A stretch of DNA of 64,000 nt. Source: Deltaproteobacteria bacterium (GTDB lineage: Bacteria; Bdellovibrionota; JACOXK01). The DNA lies in the NCBI GenBank assembly GCA_016186995.1, contig JACPKQ010000022.1, positions 62,001 through 126,000 on the forward strand, written 5' to 3'. The notes beneath the pieces are model-generated. The model had not been told where the DNA came from. It saw nothing but the letters and a program-made list of their open reading frames with translations, and searched no databases. The position numbers and the translations under genes are program-made. Shown here piece after piece: positions 22,015 to 63,925 of this stretch (the first letter of the stretch is position 1; every line of letters starts with the position of its first letter).

Positions 22015-22200
22015 ATTTAGGCTCTTAAAATGGTTACTATCTTTCGCTTCATGGCTCGCTGTAGTTGCCATATCGAATTCTTCATTATCCCGTAAGTGCT
22101 AAAGCACTGTCCGGGATGCACAGTTTTGAATATTTACAAATCGTGGGCTGCGCTTTATTTCCGCTCCAGATAGTAACCATTTTCTCACATAAACTCGAAT
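22015..22200 (+). repeat. Structured repeat element B1
   Basis: Bounded by a left end (TTTAGGCTCTTAAAATGG) and a right end (CTCACATAAACTCGAATGC). The terminal stem AAAATGGTTACTATCT (22027-22042) pairs perfectly with AGATAGTAACCATTTT (22168-22183). Inside, on the opposite strand, are the conserved B motifs GGAGCGGAAATAAAGCGCAG and GAGCCATGAAGCG, and a nested hairpin (ATCCCG...AGTGCT/AGCACT...CGGGAT). Related copies are at 37.0 and 58.7 kb. Confidence 0.8.
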
Positions 22201-22230
22201 GCAACATAAAGTTACCTAGTATGTTTTGAA

Positions 22231-22419
22231 GGCACATATAATCAAAAGATAGGGATAGTGCTTACAGAGGGTCGTGTCGGAAGGCAAGCTGGCTTGGTCC
22301 ACATAGAATATGTGGCAGATTGACTGAGACGCGAGGCGCACTTTTTCGCAGGAAAAAAGTGACGCCGTACCCGAGGGAAGTACTATCCCTATCTTTTGTG
22401 CCCATTTTAAGAACCTAAG
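22231..22419 (+). repeat. Structured repeat element A1 (possible structured RNA)
   Basis: A 21-bp terminal stem (22243-22263 with 22378-22398, one G-U) encloses about 114 bases that are nearly identical to element A2 at 63.8 kb. The interior has a perfect hairpin CCACATA-GAA-TATGTGG and a longer one around GGCGCACTTTTT/AAAAAAGTGACGCC. The right side ends in CCATTTTAAGAACCTAAG, the reversed left end of the family. No reading frame of note. Confidence 0.8.
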
Positions 22420-34943: not shown

Positions 34944-35545
34944 AATTGTTGCGAAGCTTAAGTTCTTGGAATGGCATAATAACAACTTTGGTTCTGAGTA
35001 GGGAGGGTATTTACCCAATCCCTACTCTCTCATGGATACGTGTCATTGCGAGTGCAGCGAAGCAATCCCCTAGAATTCTTAAAAGAATTCTAGGAGATCA
35101 CCACGGTTCATTTCATGAACCTCGTGATGACAGAAAAGCTGAAAAGGGGCAGGCGTTGACTGAATTTTTGCTTATTTTTATTTTACTTCTTTTTTTAATT
35201 CTTCTTCACTTTCAAGCTTCCATGAGTTTTGTTTCAAGTTCCTATATGAACTATGTTTCTTTCATGGGGGCTCGTACCAATATGGTGAGTGGAGAAGATC
35301 GTGCCCGGGCTGTTATTGAAAACATGTTAGGGCCATCTGAAGCAGGTTATCTAAGCCCTTTTGCTAGAGCAGAAGAAGCTCGGGTTACAGAAGGTGGGGT
35401 GGGTATTCCTTATAAATCCTATCTTTATATTCCTATTTTAAGATTTCAGGGACAAAAGGAAATGAATTTAGAAGCTACAACCCCTATGCGAAGAGAACCT
35501 GATTCTAATGCCTGTGGAAATCTGGAGCATGACAATGGGTGCTAA
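34940..35545 (+). CDS. TadG/E-like pseudopilin with repeat-encoded leader
   Basis: The prepilin-type site EKGQALTEFLLIFILLLFLIL (G/Q cleavage, hydrophobic helix) occurs at about residue 69, not near the start. Residues from about 10 to 65 are encoded by repeats: element C1 (34953-35038) and a 'GTCATTGCGAG' repeat (35041-35131). The ATG overlaps the previous stop (ATGA), so the original gene probably began MK... directly before KAEKGQ and was enlarged in frame. Mature part about 130 aa, likely in the periplasm as a minor pseudopilin. Confidence 0.8.
   Translation: MKLLRSLSSWNGIITTLVLSREGIYPIPTLSWIRVIASAAKQSPRILKRILGDHHGSFHEPRDDRKAEKGQALTEFLLIFILLLFLILLHFQASMSFVSSSYMNYVSFMGARTNMVSGEDRARAVIENMLGPSEAGYLSPFARAEEARVTEGGVGIPYKSYLYIPILRFQGQKEMNLEATTPMRREPDSNACGNLEHDNGC
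34953..35038 (+). repeat. Structured repeat element C1, inside a TadG-like gene
   Basis: Starts with the family left end CTTAAGTTCTTGGAATGG. Stem GAGTAGGGA (34996-35004) pairs with TCCCTACTC (35019-35027), with GGGT/ACCC inside; flanked by AACTTTGGTTCT and CTCATGGATACG. Related copies lie at 58.65 kb and 63.54 kb. Confidence 0.75.
35041..35131 (+). repeat. Modular hairpin repeat (GTCATTGCGAG type) inside a TadG-like gene
   Basis: GTCATTGCGAGTGCAGCGAAGC, a variable hairpin TAGAATTCTT/AAGAATTCTA, GAGATCACCACG, a second hairpin GGTTCAT/ATGAACC, and CTCGTGATGACAG. The frame stays open throughout and encodes about 30 residues. Confidence 0.8.
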
Positions 35546-36933: not shown

Positions 36934-38757
36934 ATGAGAACTTATAAAATAAATAACACAGTTAAGTTCTTGAAATGGCTAGTTTACATAAACACGAGCT
37001 TAAGCAAGCACACTATTCGTGACTATGTGAAGAAATGGTCAGTGTTTGGAGCGGAAGTAAAGCGCAGCCCACGGTTCGTAATAAAAAGAATATCGATCCT
37101 TTGGCTGAAGCCTCTGGATGACAAACTACAGCGAGCCATGAAGCGGAAAACACTGCCATTTCAAGAACCTAAGCTGCAAAATACATTATTGCTGTTGATA
37201 ACCTTTTTTTTACTAAGCATCTCAAGTATGAATACCGCTTTTTCGAAGACGGAAGAGAAGGTGGATATTCCTACTGTTTATCTTAATTTTACAAACAATA
37301 TTCCAAAGTTTCGCCGTGTTGATTTTTCCATTGGTAGAGTTGTTCCAGCAGATAGAAATATTGCAAATGGGCTGATTCCACCAGGGCAAAAAGTGCCAAG
37401 TCTTATTCACTTTATTCCTAAAACACCCGGGCTTACAAGTATTACTGTTTACGATACCAAAAATAACCCACGTATTGTTTACCAAATTACAGTTCTCTCC
37501 AAAGATCAGGGGGCTATTATTTCTGAACTCAATCAACTCTTAGGAGAAGTCGAGGGTATTCAGATAAGCCCAGTAGGTACTAAGGTCGCTATTGGTGGAG
37601 AAATTATTTTGCCTCGTGATTTAAGAAAAATTATTTCTGTTATAGGTCAAGTTGATAAAGATAAAGATTATAAAGGTAAAATTATTTTAACTGCAGCTCT
37701 TTCAGATCTTTCAAAACAACTGATTGCTAACATGATTATGAGAGAAATTTCAGAAAATGAAGCTCTTAAATCTGTAGCCGCCAAGGTTTATGTAAAACCT
37801 ATTAAAAATAATTTTCAACTCGTAGGTATTGTTGATACCGATGATCAAAGAAAAAAAATAGAAACCATTGCTTTTGAATTCATTCCCGATTTTTATAGAG
37901 AGCCTTCTCAATTTAAAGAATTTGAAATTCAAATGCCCTTACCACGAATTGTAAACTTGATCGATTTAGCGCCTGAAAAGAAAGAAGCACCTAAAGCGCC
38001 CACACTTTATAAGATTACAGCTCGTTATGTTGAGATGAATAAAAACTATCTTCGTCAGTTTGGTATTGATTGGGGACCAGGGTTTGTGGATACCTCAAAG
38101 CTTGAGGTCGATTCTGAAAAGGTAGGTGTTATTGGAGCTGTCACAGGAACAATAAATAGCCTCATTCCAAAATTAAAAACGGCCAAGGAATTAGGTTTAG
38201 CGCGCGAACTTCAAGCTTTTGAAATTCTTATAACTGAAGGAGAAAACGGCATTATTTCTAATGTAACGAATATTCCTTTTCCTGTGATTGGCGAAAGAGG
38301 GCAAGAGGGCACCGAGTTTGCTCCGACAGGTTTAGATGCAGTCGTCAAACCAAATGCTATTGGAGATAAAGCCAATAATGTTAAATTAGCACTTAAGTTC
38401 AGTCTTAAAACATTAGCTGGTTTCGTCAATGCTAGACCTTCTATTACTGAAAACAAAATGGATACAACCATTACTCTTAAACCAGATCAAAGTGCTGCTA
38501 TTGGTGGTTTAGTGACGGCAAGTTTAGGAAAAGAGTTTAATAGAATGCCTAAAGCAACACAGGAAATATCAGATCCTATTTTTAGATTACTTCGTTCTAA
38601 AGCGTTTCGAGATAATAAGTCTCAATTTGTTATTTTCGTGACTCCTCAGATCATGACAGATGTCAAAGTGAATGCTGAGGCTTCTACTGTTGGAGATAAG
38701 TTTAACATCAAGTTACCTGAGGCTATTAAAGATGATCCGGGGTTAACGGAGAATTAA
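36934..38757 (+). CDS. cpaC: Tad secretin CpaC/RcpA with a repeat inserted in the signal peptide
   Basis: Outer-membrane secretin of the Tad pilus: N-terminal domain with PTVYLNFTNNIPKFRRVDF, BON-like repeats, and the secretin core (about 385-600; ITENKMDTTITLKPDQSAAIGGLV, FVIFVTPQIM). AAGGA 7 bases before ATG 36934 marks the original start: MRTYKINN. Then about 73 residues come from structured repeats (36960-37177), after which the signal peptide core TLLLLITFFLLSISS resumes. An ATG in the repeat (37138) gives MKRKTLPFQEPKLQN plus that core, a usable signal peptide, and may now be the true start. Confidence 0.88.
   Translation: MRTYKINNTVKFLKWLVYINTSLSKHTIRDYVKKWSVFGAEVKRSPRFVIKRISILWLKPLDDKLQRAMKRKTLPFQEPKLQNTLLLLITFFLLSISSMNTAFSKTEEKVDIPTVYLNFTNNIPKFRRVDFSIGRVVPADRNIANGLIPPGQKVPSLIHFIPKTPGLTSITVYDTKNNPRIVYQITVLSKDQGAIISELNQLLGEVEGIQISPVGTKVAIGGEIILPRDLRKIISVIGQVDKDKDYKGKIILTAALSDLSKQLIANMIMREISENEALKSVAAKVYVKPIKNNFQLVGIVDTDDQRKKIETIAFEFIPDFYREPSQFKEFEIQMPLPRIVNLIDLAPEKKEAPKAPTLYKITARYVEMNKNYLRQFGIDWGPGFVDTSKLEVDSEKVGVIGAVTGTINSLIPKLKTAKELGLARELQAFEILITEGENGIISNVTNIPFPVIGERGQEGTEFAPTGLDAVVKPNAIGDKANNVKLALKFSLKTLAGFVNARPSITENKMDTTITLKPDQSAAIGGLVTASLGKEFNRMPKATQEISDPIFRLLRSKAFRDNKSQFVIFVTPQIMTDVKVNAEASTVGDKFNIKLPEAIKDDPGLTEN
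36960..37177 (+). repeat. Structured repeat element B2 with a flanking mini-element, inside cpaC
   Basis: First a mini-element: left end GTTAAGTTCTTGAAATGG joined to right end AGTTTACATAAACACGAG. Then element B2 in reverse orientation: ATTCGTGACTATGTGAAG, stem GAAATGGTCAGTGTTT (37032-37047) pairing with AAACACTGCCATTTC (37148-37162, one bulge), and CCATTTCAAGAACCTAAG. Conserved B motifs GGAGCGGAAGTAAAGCGCAG and GCGAGCCATGAAGCGGAA inside. Frame stays open across it. Confidence 0.85.
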
Positions 38758-38788
38758 TTCTGGATCCCCGCCTTCGCGGGAATGACAG
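38757..38788. repeat. Short palindromic repeat (CCCGC-GCGGG type)
   Basis: CTGGATCCCCGCCTTCGCGGG and AATGACA, directly after the cpaC stop. Confidence 0.8.
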
Positions 38789-38802
38789 AGGTTGTCAGTG
38801 AA

Positions 38803-57153: not shown

Positions 57154-57185
57154 ATTTTTTACAAATGAGACAGTTTTTCACTTCC

Positions 57186-57265
57186 TGTCATTGCGAGTGA
57201 AACGAAGCAATCTCATCGCTACCGCGATGGGATCGCCACGGTCGTTACACTCCCTCGCGATGACA
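57186..57265 (+). repeat. Modular hairpin repeat (GTCATTGCGAG type)
   Basis: GTCATTGCGAGTGAAACGAAGC, variable hairpin ATCGCTACCGCGAT, GGATCGCCACG, a second variable part, and CTCGCGATGACA. It lies between the histidine kinase 3' end and the second secretin. Confidence 0.85.
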
Positions 57266-58419: not shown

Positions 58420-58600
58420 CTTTAAGTTCTTAAAAATGGCCACAAAAGACAGGGATAGTGCTTCCCTCGATATATTACATCGGTGGGACTGTATTTCTCA
58501 AAAACACGCTATCAAAATTCCCTGCGAGAATTTTGCGCTCTCTCTCGGCCGCGAGAAGGTTTTTTTGAAACACAGTTCCACCTCTTTATATCTTTTGCCC
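58420..58600 (+). repeat. Structured repeat element A3 (chimera)
   Basis: Begins with the left end TTTAAGTTCTTAAAAATGG, then ACAAAAGACAGGGATAGTGC, nearly identical to the reversed end of element A1. After CTTCCCTCG the interior is different: stem GTGGGACTGT (58483-58492) with ACAGTTCCAC (58572-58581) and inner hairpin AAAATTC/GAATTTT. It closes at TATCTTTTGCCC. Confidence 0.7.
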
Positions 58601-58612
58601 TATAACTTTATT

Positions 58613-58700
58613 CTCGAGTTTATGTGAAGATGGGCTGAATTTCGAGTCCATGAGAGAGTAGGGACTGGGTAAACACCCTCCCTACTCAGAACCAAAGTTG
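58613..58700 (-). repeat. Structured repeat element C2
   Basis: Reversed right end CTCGAGTTTATGTGAAG, then GAGTAGGGA (58656-58664) pairing with TCCCTACTC (58679-58687), flanked by TCCATGAGA and AGAACCAAAGTTGTAATTATG as in C1 (reverse orientation). Confidence 0.75.
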
Positions 58701-58817
58701 TAATTATGTGAGGAAATGGTCAGTGTCTGGAGCGGAAGTAAAGCGGAGCTCTATGAGGCCTTGCCGAATAAAGAGCGAGCCATGAAGCGGAAGACACTGC
58801 CATTTCAAGAACTTAAG
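58700..58817 (-). repeat. Structured repeat element B3
   Basis: TAATTATGTGAG, stem GAAATGGTCAGTGTCT (58713-58728) with AGACACTGCCATTTC (58792-58806), then CCATTTCAAGAACTTAAG. Interior conserved motifs GGAGCGGAAGTAAAGCGGAG and GCGAGCCATGAAGCGGAA as in B2; the middle is shorter. Confidence 0.8.
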
Positions 58818-58828
58818 TTCGAATAAAC

Positions 58829-58878
58829 CCTGGATTCCCGCCTTCGCGGGAATGACAGAGGGGGATCCCGGGAATGAC
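58829..58878. repeat. Short palindromic repeats upstream of the 59-kb secreted protein
   Basis: Full copy GGATTCCCGCCTTCGCGGG with AATGACAG, then a half copy GATCCCGGGAATGAC. Confidence 0.75.
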
Positions 58879-60868: not shown

Positions 60869-60901
60869 ATACCTGGGGCCCTTGCCCCGGGTATTTTTTT
60901 G
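60869..60901 (+). terminator. Intrinsic terminator
   Basis: ATACCTGGGGC and GCCCCGGGTAT form an 11-bp stem (one G-U) with loop CCTT, followed by seven T. Just upstream of mutS, it ends the secreted-protein transcript. Confidence 0.92.
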
Positions 60902-60917
60902 TCTTATAAATAGGTTC

Positions 60918-63476
60918 ATGAATCTATCTCACACCCCCATGATTGAGCAGTACTTACGGCTTAAAAAACAATACCAAGATTGCATTCTTTTTTTTAGATT
61001 GGGTGATTTTTATGAGATGTTTTTTGAAGATGCCAGAGCTGCTTCAAAAATCCTCAACCTCACTTTAACTTCCCGTTATAAAAAGACAGATCACGAAGTT
61101 CCTATGTGTGGAGTGCCCCACCATGCAGCTGGCTCTTATATTAAAAAGCTCACTCACAAGGGCTATCGTGTTGCTATTTGTGAGCAAACAGAAGAACCGC
61201 AACCTGGAAAAAATATTGTTGATCGCGATGTGGTTCAAATAGTAACACCTGCGCTTCCCTTTAATGAAGATGATCTTTTAGGAGAAGAAAACTATTATCT
61301 TATGGCAGTGTGTCCAACTTCACCTGTCATTGCGAGTGAAACGAAGCAATCCCATCGCGGTAGCGATGAGATCACCACGCCCTCTGTCATCCCGGAAACG
61401 CGGAGCGTTATCCGGGATCCAGGGATCCAGAATTCAGAACTCCTGGATTCCCGCTTTCGCGGGAATGACAATAAAATTTTCAATGTTGCCTACATGTCTA
61501 TTGTGACAGGAGAGTTTTATACTTTTTCCTGCGCCTCTCAAGAAGAGCTTATTTCAGAGTTGACTCGAATTGACCCTAAGGAAGTTTTAGTAGAAGAATC
61601 TTTCAAAAACGCAGAATGGGTGCAGTCTTTAAAACGAGAAAATTTTTATATTTATTTTATTGCTTCCGCTCGTCATTGCGAGGAGTCAAAGACGACGCGG
61701 CAATCCCATCGCGGTAGCGATGAGATCACCACGCCCTACGGGCTCGTGATGACACCCTGTTATTCTGCACAAGACATTTTATTTGAATATTTAAAACTCA
61801 CAAAACATTATAAAACTACACTTTCTCCAGATTCAAACCTTCATCAAAACATGGTTTTAGATGGTAAAACTTTAAAAAACCTTGATGTTGTCCATCCATG
61901 GGGAGAAGAAAAACAATCTCTTTTTAAAACGCTTAACTTCACAAAATCAGCTTGTGGCGGAAGGCTTCTTAAAAAGTGGCTTAAATTTCCTCTTCTCAAA
62001 AGAAATCTCATTGAAGAGCGTCTCCACATTGTAAAAAAACTTTTTGATGTTCAGTATTTAAGAGAATCTCTTCAAAAAAAATTAAATAACGTTTACGATT
62101 TAGAAAGAATTTGTTCCAAACTAGAGAGAAACCGCGCCCACCCGAAAGATTTAAAACAACTTTTAGTAACCTTGGAGGTGGCCGTGGGGCTTCAGGCTGA
62201 TGCGGCCCCCCTGTCATTGCGAACGAATGTGAAGCAATCCCCTAGAATAAACTCTTTAGTTGAAGATCCTCCTTTAAGTTTTTATGAAGGGGGTGTTTTT
62301 AAAAAGGGCTATTCCAAAGAGCTTGATGAGCTTATTGATTTAACTCACAATTATAAAACATGGGTTTTGCGTTATGAGGAAGAAGAAAAATCAAAAACAG
62401 GGATTTCTAGTCTTAAAGTAAAATATAATTCTATTTTTGGTTATTATATCGAAGTTCGAAAAACAAATTTAGATAAAGTACCTGAAACCTATCACAGAAA
62501 ACAAACTCTTGTTCAAGCAGAAAGGTATACAACAGAAGAACTCAAAGATTTTGAATCAAGAATTCTTTCCGCAGAAGTAAAAAGAAAAAAACTAGAAACT
62601 CAACTTTTTGAAAAACTGAGAGAAGATTTAAAAAGTTCTCTTTACCTTTTTATGAAAATAGGTACGGCTTTAGCAGAGCTTGATGTTTTTTGTGCACTTT
62701 CAGAAGCAGCGAATCGTTATCATTATGTCATGCCTCATATTGTAGAAGATCAAAGTTTAAAACTTTTTCAAAGTCGTCATCCAGTTGTGGAACAGGGTCA
62801 CGATTTTATCCCCAACGATATTGTTATAGAAAAAGGGCATCTCCATCTTATTACGGGGCCTAATATGGGTGGAAAATCAACTGTGATGCGGCAGGTGGCT
62901 CTTTCACTTCTGATGATGCAGATGGGGAGTTTTGTGCCTGCAGAAAAAGCTTTTCTTCCTATCGTTGATCGCATTTTTACCCGAATTGGGGCTTCTGATG
63001 ATATTGCTCAAGGAGAGAGTACTTTTATGGTTGAGATGAAAGAAACTTCACATATTTTAGCATCTGCGACACATCAAAGCTTTATTATACTTGATGAGGT
63101 GGGGCGTGGCACAAGTACATTTGATGGATTGAGTTTAGCGTGGTCTATTGCTGAGTGGATTGTAGAAGAAATAAGGTGTCTGACGCTGTTTGCAACGCAC
63201 TATCATGAATTGACTGTTCTTTCTCAAAAATATGAAAATATTAAAAATGAGCATATGGCAGCTCTTAAAAAAGGAAATGAGATTGTTTTTCAAAGAAAAC
63301 TGAAACCAGGTGCTTTAAGTGCAAGTTTTGGAATTGAAGTGGGGCGTTTGGCAGGTCTTCCTGTGCAACTTTTAGAAAGGGCCCAAGAAGTGTTAAAAGG
63401 GCTTACCTTGCAGTCTCGTGAAAGCAAACCATCGTCTCTCAAACCCTCACCTTCCACCCAAAAACTCCTCTTTTAA
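60918..63476 (+). CDS. mutS: DNA mismatch repair protein MutS with three repeat insertions
   Basis: Recognises mismatches and starts repair. FRLGDFYEMF carries the Phe-x-Glu mismatch reader; Walker A GPNMGGKST and Walker B IILDEVGRGTSTFDG are intact, as is the dimer signature. I start at ATG 60918, since the upstream ATG (60882) lies in the terminator. 852 aa, but about 90 residues come from palindromic repeats at 61322-61474 (residues 136-186), 61671-61754 (252-279) and 62212-62249 (432-444), in the connector domain and near its borders with the core, away from catalytic motifs. The C-terminal extension after the ATPase is short. Confidence 0.95.
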   Translation: MNLSHTPMIEQYLRLKKQYQDCILFFRLGDFYEMFFEDARAASKILNLTLTSRYKKTDHEVPMCGVPHHAAGSYIKKLTHKGYRVAICEQTEEPQPGKNIVDRDVVQIVTPALPFNEDDLLGEENYYLMAVCPTSPVIASETKQSHRGSDEITTPSVIPETRSVIRDPGIQNSELLDSRFRGNDNKIFNVAYMSIVTGEFYTFSCASQEELISELTRIDPKEVLVEESFKNAEWVQSLKRENFYIYFIASARHCEESKTTRQSHRGSDEITTPYGLVMTPCYSAQDILFEYLKLTKHYKTTLSPDSNLHQNMVLDGKTLKNLDVVHPWGEEKQSLFKTLNFTKSACGGRLLKKWLKFPLLKRNLIEERLHIVKKLFDVQYLRESLQKKLNNVYDLERICSKLERNRAHPKDLKQLLVTLEVAVGLQADAAPLSLRTNVKQSPRINSLVEDPPLSFYEGGVFKKGYSKELDELIDLTHNYKTWVLRYEEEEKSKTGISSLKVKYNSIFGYYIEVRKTNLDKVPETYHRKQTLVQAERYTTEELKDFESRILSAEVKRKKLETQLFEKLREDLKSSLYLFMKIGTALAELDVFCALSEAANRYHYVMPHIVEDQSLKLFQSRHPVVEQGHDFIPNDIVIEKGHLHLITGPNMGGKSTVMRQVALSLLMMQMGSFVPAEKAFLPIVDRIFTRIGASDDIAQGESTFMVEMKETSHILASATHQSFIILDEVGRGTSTFDGLSLAWSIAEWIVEEIRCLTLFATHYHELTVLSQKYENIKNEHMAALKKGNEIVFQRKLKPGALSASFGIEVGRLAGLPVQLLERAQEVLKGLTLQSRESKPSSLKPSPSTQKLLF
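61325..61469 (+). repeat. Three palindromic repeats in series inside mutS
   Basis: GTCATTGCGAGTGAAACGAAGC with hairpin ATCGCGGTAGCGAT and GAGATCACCACG (61325-61380); a second type with CATCCCGG...CCGGGATCC (61383-61423); and GGATTCCCGCTTTCGCGGG with AATGAC (61442-61469). The frame is open throughout. Confidence 0.88.
61671..61754 (+). repeat. Modular hairpin repeat inside mutS
   Basis: GTCATTGCGAGGAGTCAAAG, CGGCAATCCC, hairpin ATCGCGGTAGCGAT, GAGATCACCACG, CCCTACGGG and CTCGTGATGACA. In frame. Confidence 0.88.
62212..62249 (+). repeat. Partial modular repeat inside mutS
   Basis: GTCATTGCGAACGAATGTGA followed by AGCAATCCCCTAGAAT: left half of the modular repeat, in frame. Confidence 0.75.
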
Positions 63477-63489
63477 AATTCTTCAGCAA

Positions 63490-63575
63490 CTTTAGGTTCT
63501 TGATAGCCTCAATGGCCCTCATGAACAACCTTGGTTCTGAATTGGGGCACACACAGCCAATTCTCTCATGGATAC
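63490..63575 (+). repeat. Structured repeat element C3 with left end
   Basis: Left end ACTTTAGGTTCTTGATAGCC, then TTGGTTCT, stem GAATTGG (63539-63545) with CCAATTC (63557-63563), CTCATGGATACG. Same flanks as C1, but the stem sequence differs from GAGTAGGGA/TCCCTACTC while pairing is kept. Confidence 0.75.
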
Positions 63576-63577
63576 GT

Positions 63578-63685
63578 GTCATTGCGAGCGTAGCGAAGCA
63601 ATCTCCTAGAATTGCTTTAGCAATTCTAGGACAACACTTGCGTGTTGAGATCGCCACGGGTTCTTTAAGAACCCTCGCGATGACA
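63578..63685 (+). repeat. Modular hairpin repeat (GTCATTGCGAG type) with two hairpins
   Basis: GTCATTGCGAGCGTAGCGAAGC, hairpin CTAGAATTGC/GCAATTCTAG, hairpin CAACACTTGCGTGTTG, GAGATCGCCACG, hairpin GGGTTCTT/AAGAACCC, CTCGCGATGACAG. The longest copy of this type in the window; a family right end (CTTCACATGGTCACGAAT) follows at 63693-63715. Confidence 0.85.
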
Positions 63686-63737
63686 GCCAGACCATTTCTT
63701 CACATGGTCACGAATAATTGATGCGAAAAATAAAAAC

Positions 63738-63925
63738 TAAAGCTTATGTAAAAAACAGGGGGAGTGCTTGCAGAGGGTCGTGTCGGAAGGAAATCTGGCT
63801 TGGTCCACATAGAATATGTGGCAGATTGACTGAGACGCGAGGCGCACTTTTTCGCAGGAAAAAAAGTGACGCCGTACCCGATGGAAGCACTCTCCCTGTT
63901 TTTGTTACCATTTCAAGAACTTAAG
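63738..63925 (+). repeat. Structured repeat element A2 (possible structured RNA)
   Basis: Left AAAGCTTATGTAA, stem AAAAACAGGGGGAGTGCTT (63751-63769) pairing with AAGCACTCTCCCTGTTTTT (63885-63903, one G-U), interior 63770-63884 nearly identical to A1, and closing end CCATTTCAAGAACTTAAG. The stem sequence differs from A1 but pairs equally well. Confidence 0.82.

Follow-up and report, generated by a model that had tools for sequence, protein, structure and literature searches.

Within the 64-kb window, by which we mean the whole stretch of DNA analyzed (64,000 nucleotides), element A1 (22243..22398, + strand) occupies an intergenic region flanked by a divergent M16 peptidase-like gene on one side and a T2SSF/Tad-type gene on the other. 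It is a full copy of subfamily A and scored 157.5 bits over 22245-22396 with the covariance model R2 described below. Another full copy with a divergent terminal stem, A2 (63750..63904, + strand; 149.1 bits over 63751-63903), is located downstream of mutS. The original prediction had placed two such elements here, and both exist where it located them: their shared interiors are near-identical (94% identity over 115 nt), and the terminal stems (GATAGGGATAGT/ACTATCCCTATC in A1 and ACAGGGGGAGT/ACTCTCCCTGT in A2) are divergent yet paired. A1 (z = -7.5) and A2 (z = -8.8) both have folding energies far below those of dinucleotide shuffles. Scanning the window with R2 returned one further match, a shortened copy of subfamily C on the minus strand (58478..58586; 55.2 bits; P1 GAGGTGGAACTGTG), which has an internally deleted P2 arm and sits within the remnant of a subfamily A element. 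Comparison with full subfamily B copies also identified a remnant of this subfamily directly upstream of A1 (ACATAAAGTTACCTAGTATGTTTTGAAGG; 22203..22235, + strand).

Fold and covariation together delimit the terminal stem P1 of A1, with a 5' arm at 22243..22263 (CAAAAGATAGGGATAGTGCTT) and a 3' arm at 22378..22398 (AAGTACTATCCCTATCTTTTG), both given on the + strand like all parts of A1. The arms enclose a conserved three-way-junction core (22269..22372) consisting of a GGG/CCC closing helix and the arms P2 and P3. P2 (22273..22333) comprises the helix CGTGTC/GACGCG, an internal loop, the bulge GCTTGGT and the apical hairpin P2c (22299-22315; CCACATA/TATGTGG), which covaries to CCGCAT/ATGCGG and CTGCAT/ATGCAG. 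P3 (22335..22366; GGCGCACTTTTT..GTG-A-CGCC) carries a conserved bulged A and the loop CGCAGGA.

Additional repeats occur in the window. A second dispersed repeat (GGTTCTTGAAATGG..TTACTATC..GATAGTAACCATTT, with AGCGAGCCATGAAGCGGAAG) is present at 22019-22190, 37019-37184 and 58700-58828 and often adjoins the element. A palindromic repeat (TCATTGCGAG..GAAGCAATC..GATCGCCACG) was found at 35021-35101, 57184-57240, 61323-61379, 61695-61737 and 63557-63690. Two of its copies are located within the mutS open reading frame (60882-63476), and therefore at least two repeat families of the source genome may be in-frame coding palindromes. The CTGGATTCCCGCCTTCGCGGGAATGACA repeat (38751-38791, 58821-58861 and 61434-61474) also has one copy in the mutS frame. 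Overall, the intergenic regions have the appearance of mosaics in which several palindromic repeats are nested.

A1 and A2 had been described as twins, a view that did not hold at the genome scale: BLAST of the 1.68 Mb source genome gave 40 matches, including 21 full-length ones, and R2 detected 49 copies. A first covariance model (R1), built from the 21 full copies, recovered divergent copies with wholly different terminal stems; R2 was built from 19 diverse copies. The many further copies that these searches revealed in the source genome and its relatives kept their pairing. The consensus unit of about 150 bases consists of P1 and a conserved, GC-rich three-way-junction core of about 110 nt, arranged as P1, a closing helix of three base pairs, arm P2 with internal loop, bulge (GCTTGG or GGCATGG) and apical hairpin P2c, and arm P3 with a bulged A and the loop CGC(A/T)GG. 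The loops are almost invariant across copies. Two core types can be distinguished, I (CTCGCAGGCCGAGCGGGCATGG) and II (CTCGGAGGCGAAAAAGCTTGG), with subfamily A of the source genome being nearer to type II by its GCTTGG bulge. No Rfam family matched the element at gathering or relaxed thresholds, and within the scope of this search the initial statement that no described family matches holds.

In a structure-blind alignment of the 21 full copies, 99.2% of the pair cells were paired, compared to 39-50% when partners were slid, and eleven pairs had changed on both sides (3.6 ± 1.2 in shuffles). Among 97 distinct copies from eight genomes, 90.6% of the cells were paired (40-45% slid) and 1770 cells were double-changed, although this alignment was fitted to the covariance model and leans towards structure. 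The compensatory stem changes of the original prediction are thus real and run through all helices. Further, G.T exceeded A.C in the core helices on the model strand (for P3, 35 versus 5 in A4, with 26 of these G.T cells from one column pair, and 32 versus 5 in A5), indicating some selection on one folded strand. The proposed selection on an RNA or single-stranded DNA fold is therefore partly supported, being real for the core, the fold of which is conserved on one strand. These observations, namely massive covariation in every helix, nearly invariant loops, the G.T excess in the core and element positions common to different species, are what a multi-copy host-functional structured RNA (cis-regulatory or small RNA) with all helices kept paired by RNA-level selection would produce. 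Nevertheless, we regard such an RNA as an unlikely explanation, given the properties of P1, the insertion pattern and the distribution presented below.

P1 is in most genomes a near-perfect palindrome of 15-30 bp that is specific to its locus and has the base composition of the host. Arms from different loci are unrelated outside the source genome (median identity 25-38%); the source genome is the exception, with subfamilies A and B each having a P1 common to many copies. The GC content of P1 equals that of the host flanks in genomes G000 to G004 (core GC 0.54-0.67), and the P1 arms of G005 to G007 are more AT-rich than their flanks. These data bear on whether the element is an ordinary MITE, derived by deletion from a DNA transposon and with P1 as the terminal inverted repeats bound by a transposase. 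Like RUP, Correia and ERIC, the element is small (150 bp), noncoding, non-autonomous and dispersed, with inverted ends, and the shared P1 of subfamilies A and B would also agree with a MITE. However, MITE ends are conserved and MITEs usually duplicate their target site. Here, the conserved part is the interior, the opposite of a MITE, and in most genomes P1 is unique to each locus and thus cannot be a recognition sequence. Target-site duplications were not clearly above chance (mean 1.72 nt versus 1.48 ± 0.13 nt for shuffled partners, maximum 6, n = 101). The MITE explanation is thus largely refuted, and we give it little credence.

At four sites shared between species, eight comparisons showed double-sided changes in 57 P1 pairs and single-sided changes in 14. 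P1 is generally less conserved than the core at shared sites; flank identities are unreliable for the pair L070/L140, for which no flank match was found. A model-free count in P1 gave 76 G.T versus 52 A.C (P = 0.04), a ratio that is unlike an RNA helix under selection and argues against a host-functional RNA. The same is true for the orientation of the core: at TrpE/PabB, at LpxB-LpxK and at a third site, species sharing the site carry the core in opposite directions. Template switching between inverted repeats is described in PMC8604942 as homogenizing the arms and inverting the spacer, and PMC8794818 contains the proposal that it creates and maintains RNA hairpins. This one process would yield perfect arms, locus-specific drift and core flips. 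We therefore propose DNA template switching, a process that also inverts spacers, as the probable main cause of P1 remaining paired; arm-to-arm switching within a mobile palindrome accounts for the pattern better than a gene for a host RNA does. Thus, the part of the original claim that ascribed the pairing of the terminal stems to selection on a fold is not required for P1, as the stem is locus-specific, of host composition, barely enriched in G.T over A.C, found in genes on either strand and sometimes closes an inverted core.

Outside the source genome, 26 copies of the home class are found within open frames, with no strand bias (13 in sense and 13 in antisense orientation). About 13 of the 26 are in frame and either have long stretches of protein to both sides or extend to a contig end; the remaining copies are near N-termini, where the true gene start is uncertain. 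The genes that hold these copies are intact and include PurL (G001, G002 and G007), LpxB-LpxK (G003, G005, G006 and G007, with G004 at another site), TrpE/PabB (G002 and G005), COX15 and a PBP, the insert of the latter preceding the PASTA domain. Pfam domains flank the insert on both sides in the proteins checked. Several genomes of the class have LpxB and LpxK fused into one frame (L077, L078 and L115). The open frame is kept in all in-gene copies, and in-gene elements had 2.31 of six frames open (1.32 in shuffles), compared to 1.65 (1.34) for other copies. Judging from these open frames, the in-gene copies would be translated as inserts of about 50-60 residues. As a structured insert with a long closing stem inside essential genes, the element could also resemble a new type of intron or a translational bypass element. 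The equal numbers of sense and antisense copies and the open frames, which removal would not need, argue against an intron, and decayed halves of the element persist in the PurL gene of G005 and G006, with an intact copy in PurL of G007. We therefore reject the intron and consider this whole class of explanations extremely improbable. The absence of orientation bias relative to genes and the many copies within open reading frames on both strands also speak against a host-functional RNA.

Same-genus orthologs lacking the element could be aligned for several loci (L137 versus L213 and L227, L138 versus L223, L071 versus L228 and L142 versus L230), and the empty sites contained neither the core nor either P1 arm. 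Core and P1 are hence present or absent together as one unit. The possibility that P1 repeats the flanking sequence of the insertion site in inverted form was ruled out, since the alignable empty sites hold neither arm. Elements also insert into each other. Twice, on two contigs with 95% identity, a type I element has its P2c hairpin replaced by a type II element that brings its own P1; a third such nesting was observed in L164, and in the source genome subfamilies B and A carry other inserts in P2c or P3. Hairpin apices seem to be favored as insertion sites. In two elements of other genomes (L112 1497-1719 and L144 1492-1729), the P2c apex holds other palindromic repeats (..CTCGCAATGACA, GTCATCCTGACCCTGAGCGAAGCG..). 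A 46-nt hairpin module (CTTTTATGAATCATTTTTTAGTTTCACAAAAATGATTCATAAAAAAG) occupies two places, P3 in subfamily A and P2c in subfamily B (L053-L055 of G000, L097, L099, L102, L105 and L106).

Two enzyme families were tested as possible mobilizers, and neither has a member in the source genome, so that a nearby transposase, raised at the outset as a competing explanation of the stems, found no support among them. The RAYT-type Y1 transposase (Y1_Tnp, PF01797) was detected in four of the eight genomes of the class and reverse transcriptase (RVT_1, PF00078) in one of eight. We thus rejected both as mobilizers, as they are absent from the source genome and not universal in the class. This also separates the element from REP/REPIN sequences with their RAYT (PF01797 is missing from the source genome and from four of the eight class genomes) and from derivatives of retroelements or group II introns.

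R2 detected copies in all eight genomes of the source class (5-49 each) and not a single one in 360 genomes from the rest of the phylum. A scan for a 21-base core pattern, for which we estimate about 0.1 chance matches, returned 57 stretches in named genomes. Home class matches were the "Deltaproteobacteria bacterium" MAGs GWA2_38_16, NC_groundwater_1142/713/714 and nzgw280; beyond this class, the pattern occurred in Wolfe-, Jorgensen-, Lipton- and Parcubacteria (Patescibacteria), Omnitrophota and Stahlbacteria. R2 confirmed 19 of 21 genomes from the pattern scan with 1-26 copies each. Single matches in Streptomyces and a soil actinobacterium are due to chance (no copies by the model) and act as controls. 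In an even sample of the phylum containing a Wolfebacteria match, 18 of 285 further genomes carried copies. No viral contig contained the core pattern, and distant BLAST found no plasmid with a type I copy and no phage with A1. The family is hence distributed across phyla in a horizontally patchy manner, and its patchy, multi-copy occurrence indicates that it is mobile. This patchiness and the sites left empty in congeners are further points against a host-functional RNA.

Among the closest known systems, Rickettsia palindromic elements (RPEs; PMC10969869) behave similarly: they are likewise palindromes of about 150 bp, inserted repeatedly in frame in unrelated genes and also between genes. 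The family described here shares the palindromic unit of about 100-150 bp in many copies and the in-frame insertion in unrelated protein genes. RPE arms are reported to lose identity with time (PMC6649704), whereas the arms here stay paired while changing, without the reported decay. The conserved three-way-junction core, the locus-specific P1, the core inversions and the cross-phylum range also differ. RPEs are not known to have the core sequence of this family. The element works like an RPE in being mobile, in frame and palindromic, and differs in the other properties tested. No Rickettsia records were listed in the core pattern scan of named genomes, a weak indication with regard to homology. 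REP/REPIN sequences and GTAG- and CGTC-tagged palindromes are also dispersed and structured and occur in many phyla; the CGTC type likewise has no linked transposase and is sometimes found within longer palindromes (PMC3733652). REPs, however, are single hairpins of 20-40 nt with a conserved terminal tag, in contrast to a multibranch element of about 150 nt with a variable outer stem. In the coding palindromes of nematomorph mitochondria, near-perfect inverted repeats within genes, the arms evolve in concert, for which repeat conversion or template switching was held responsible (PMC6649704). Unlike the element, they have no conserved mobile core and do not form a dispersal family.

Taken together, we consider it fairly probable that A1 and A2 are small, non-autonomous mobile palindromic elements of an undescribed, RPE-like family that move as a hairpin and have a template-switched P1. 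The unit would move as a hairpin of single-stranded DNA or RNA, using machinery that recognizes the core and is perhaps provided by the host. During replication, template switching would copy one P1 arm onto the other, which may keep the pairing, let the stem drift to host composition and occasionally invert the core; the sequence of P1 would be free because arm is recopied onto arm. Copies within genes may survive because the unit contains few stop codons and, when translated, would be tolerated as an insert. More speculatively, and with considerable doubt on our side, the elements could represent a new class of mobile elements without a transposase of their own, structured single-stranded hairpins in which the core fold is the transposition signal, and which integrate at or swap with hairpins already present, rebuild their perfect palindromic stem through template switching at replication and spread across phyla and into the coding sequence of essential genes. 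A host function of the core may be considered beside the reading as a selfish element.

Most descriptions of in-frame palindromic mobile elements come from Rickettsia, in which the elements reportedly decay. The family presented here spans phyla, occurs in many copies and keeps its structure, and every sampled genome of one class contains it. It offers many natural replicates to test whether selection or template switching keeps genomic hairpins perfect. For the inference of RNA structure at large this question is open, as covariation of such strength is normally taken to demonstrate a functional RNA. The element will turn up repeatedly in annotation and covariation pipelines. For the uncultured lineages themselves, the reading frames suggest that proteins such as PurL, LpxB, TrpE and heme A synthase probably hold mobile-element inserts of 50-60 residues.
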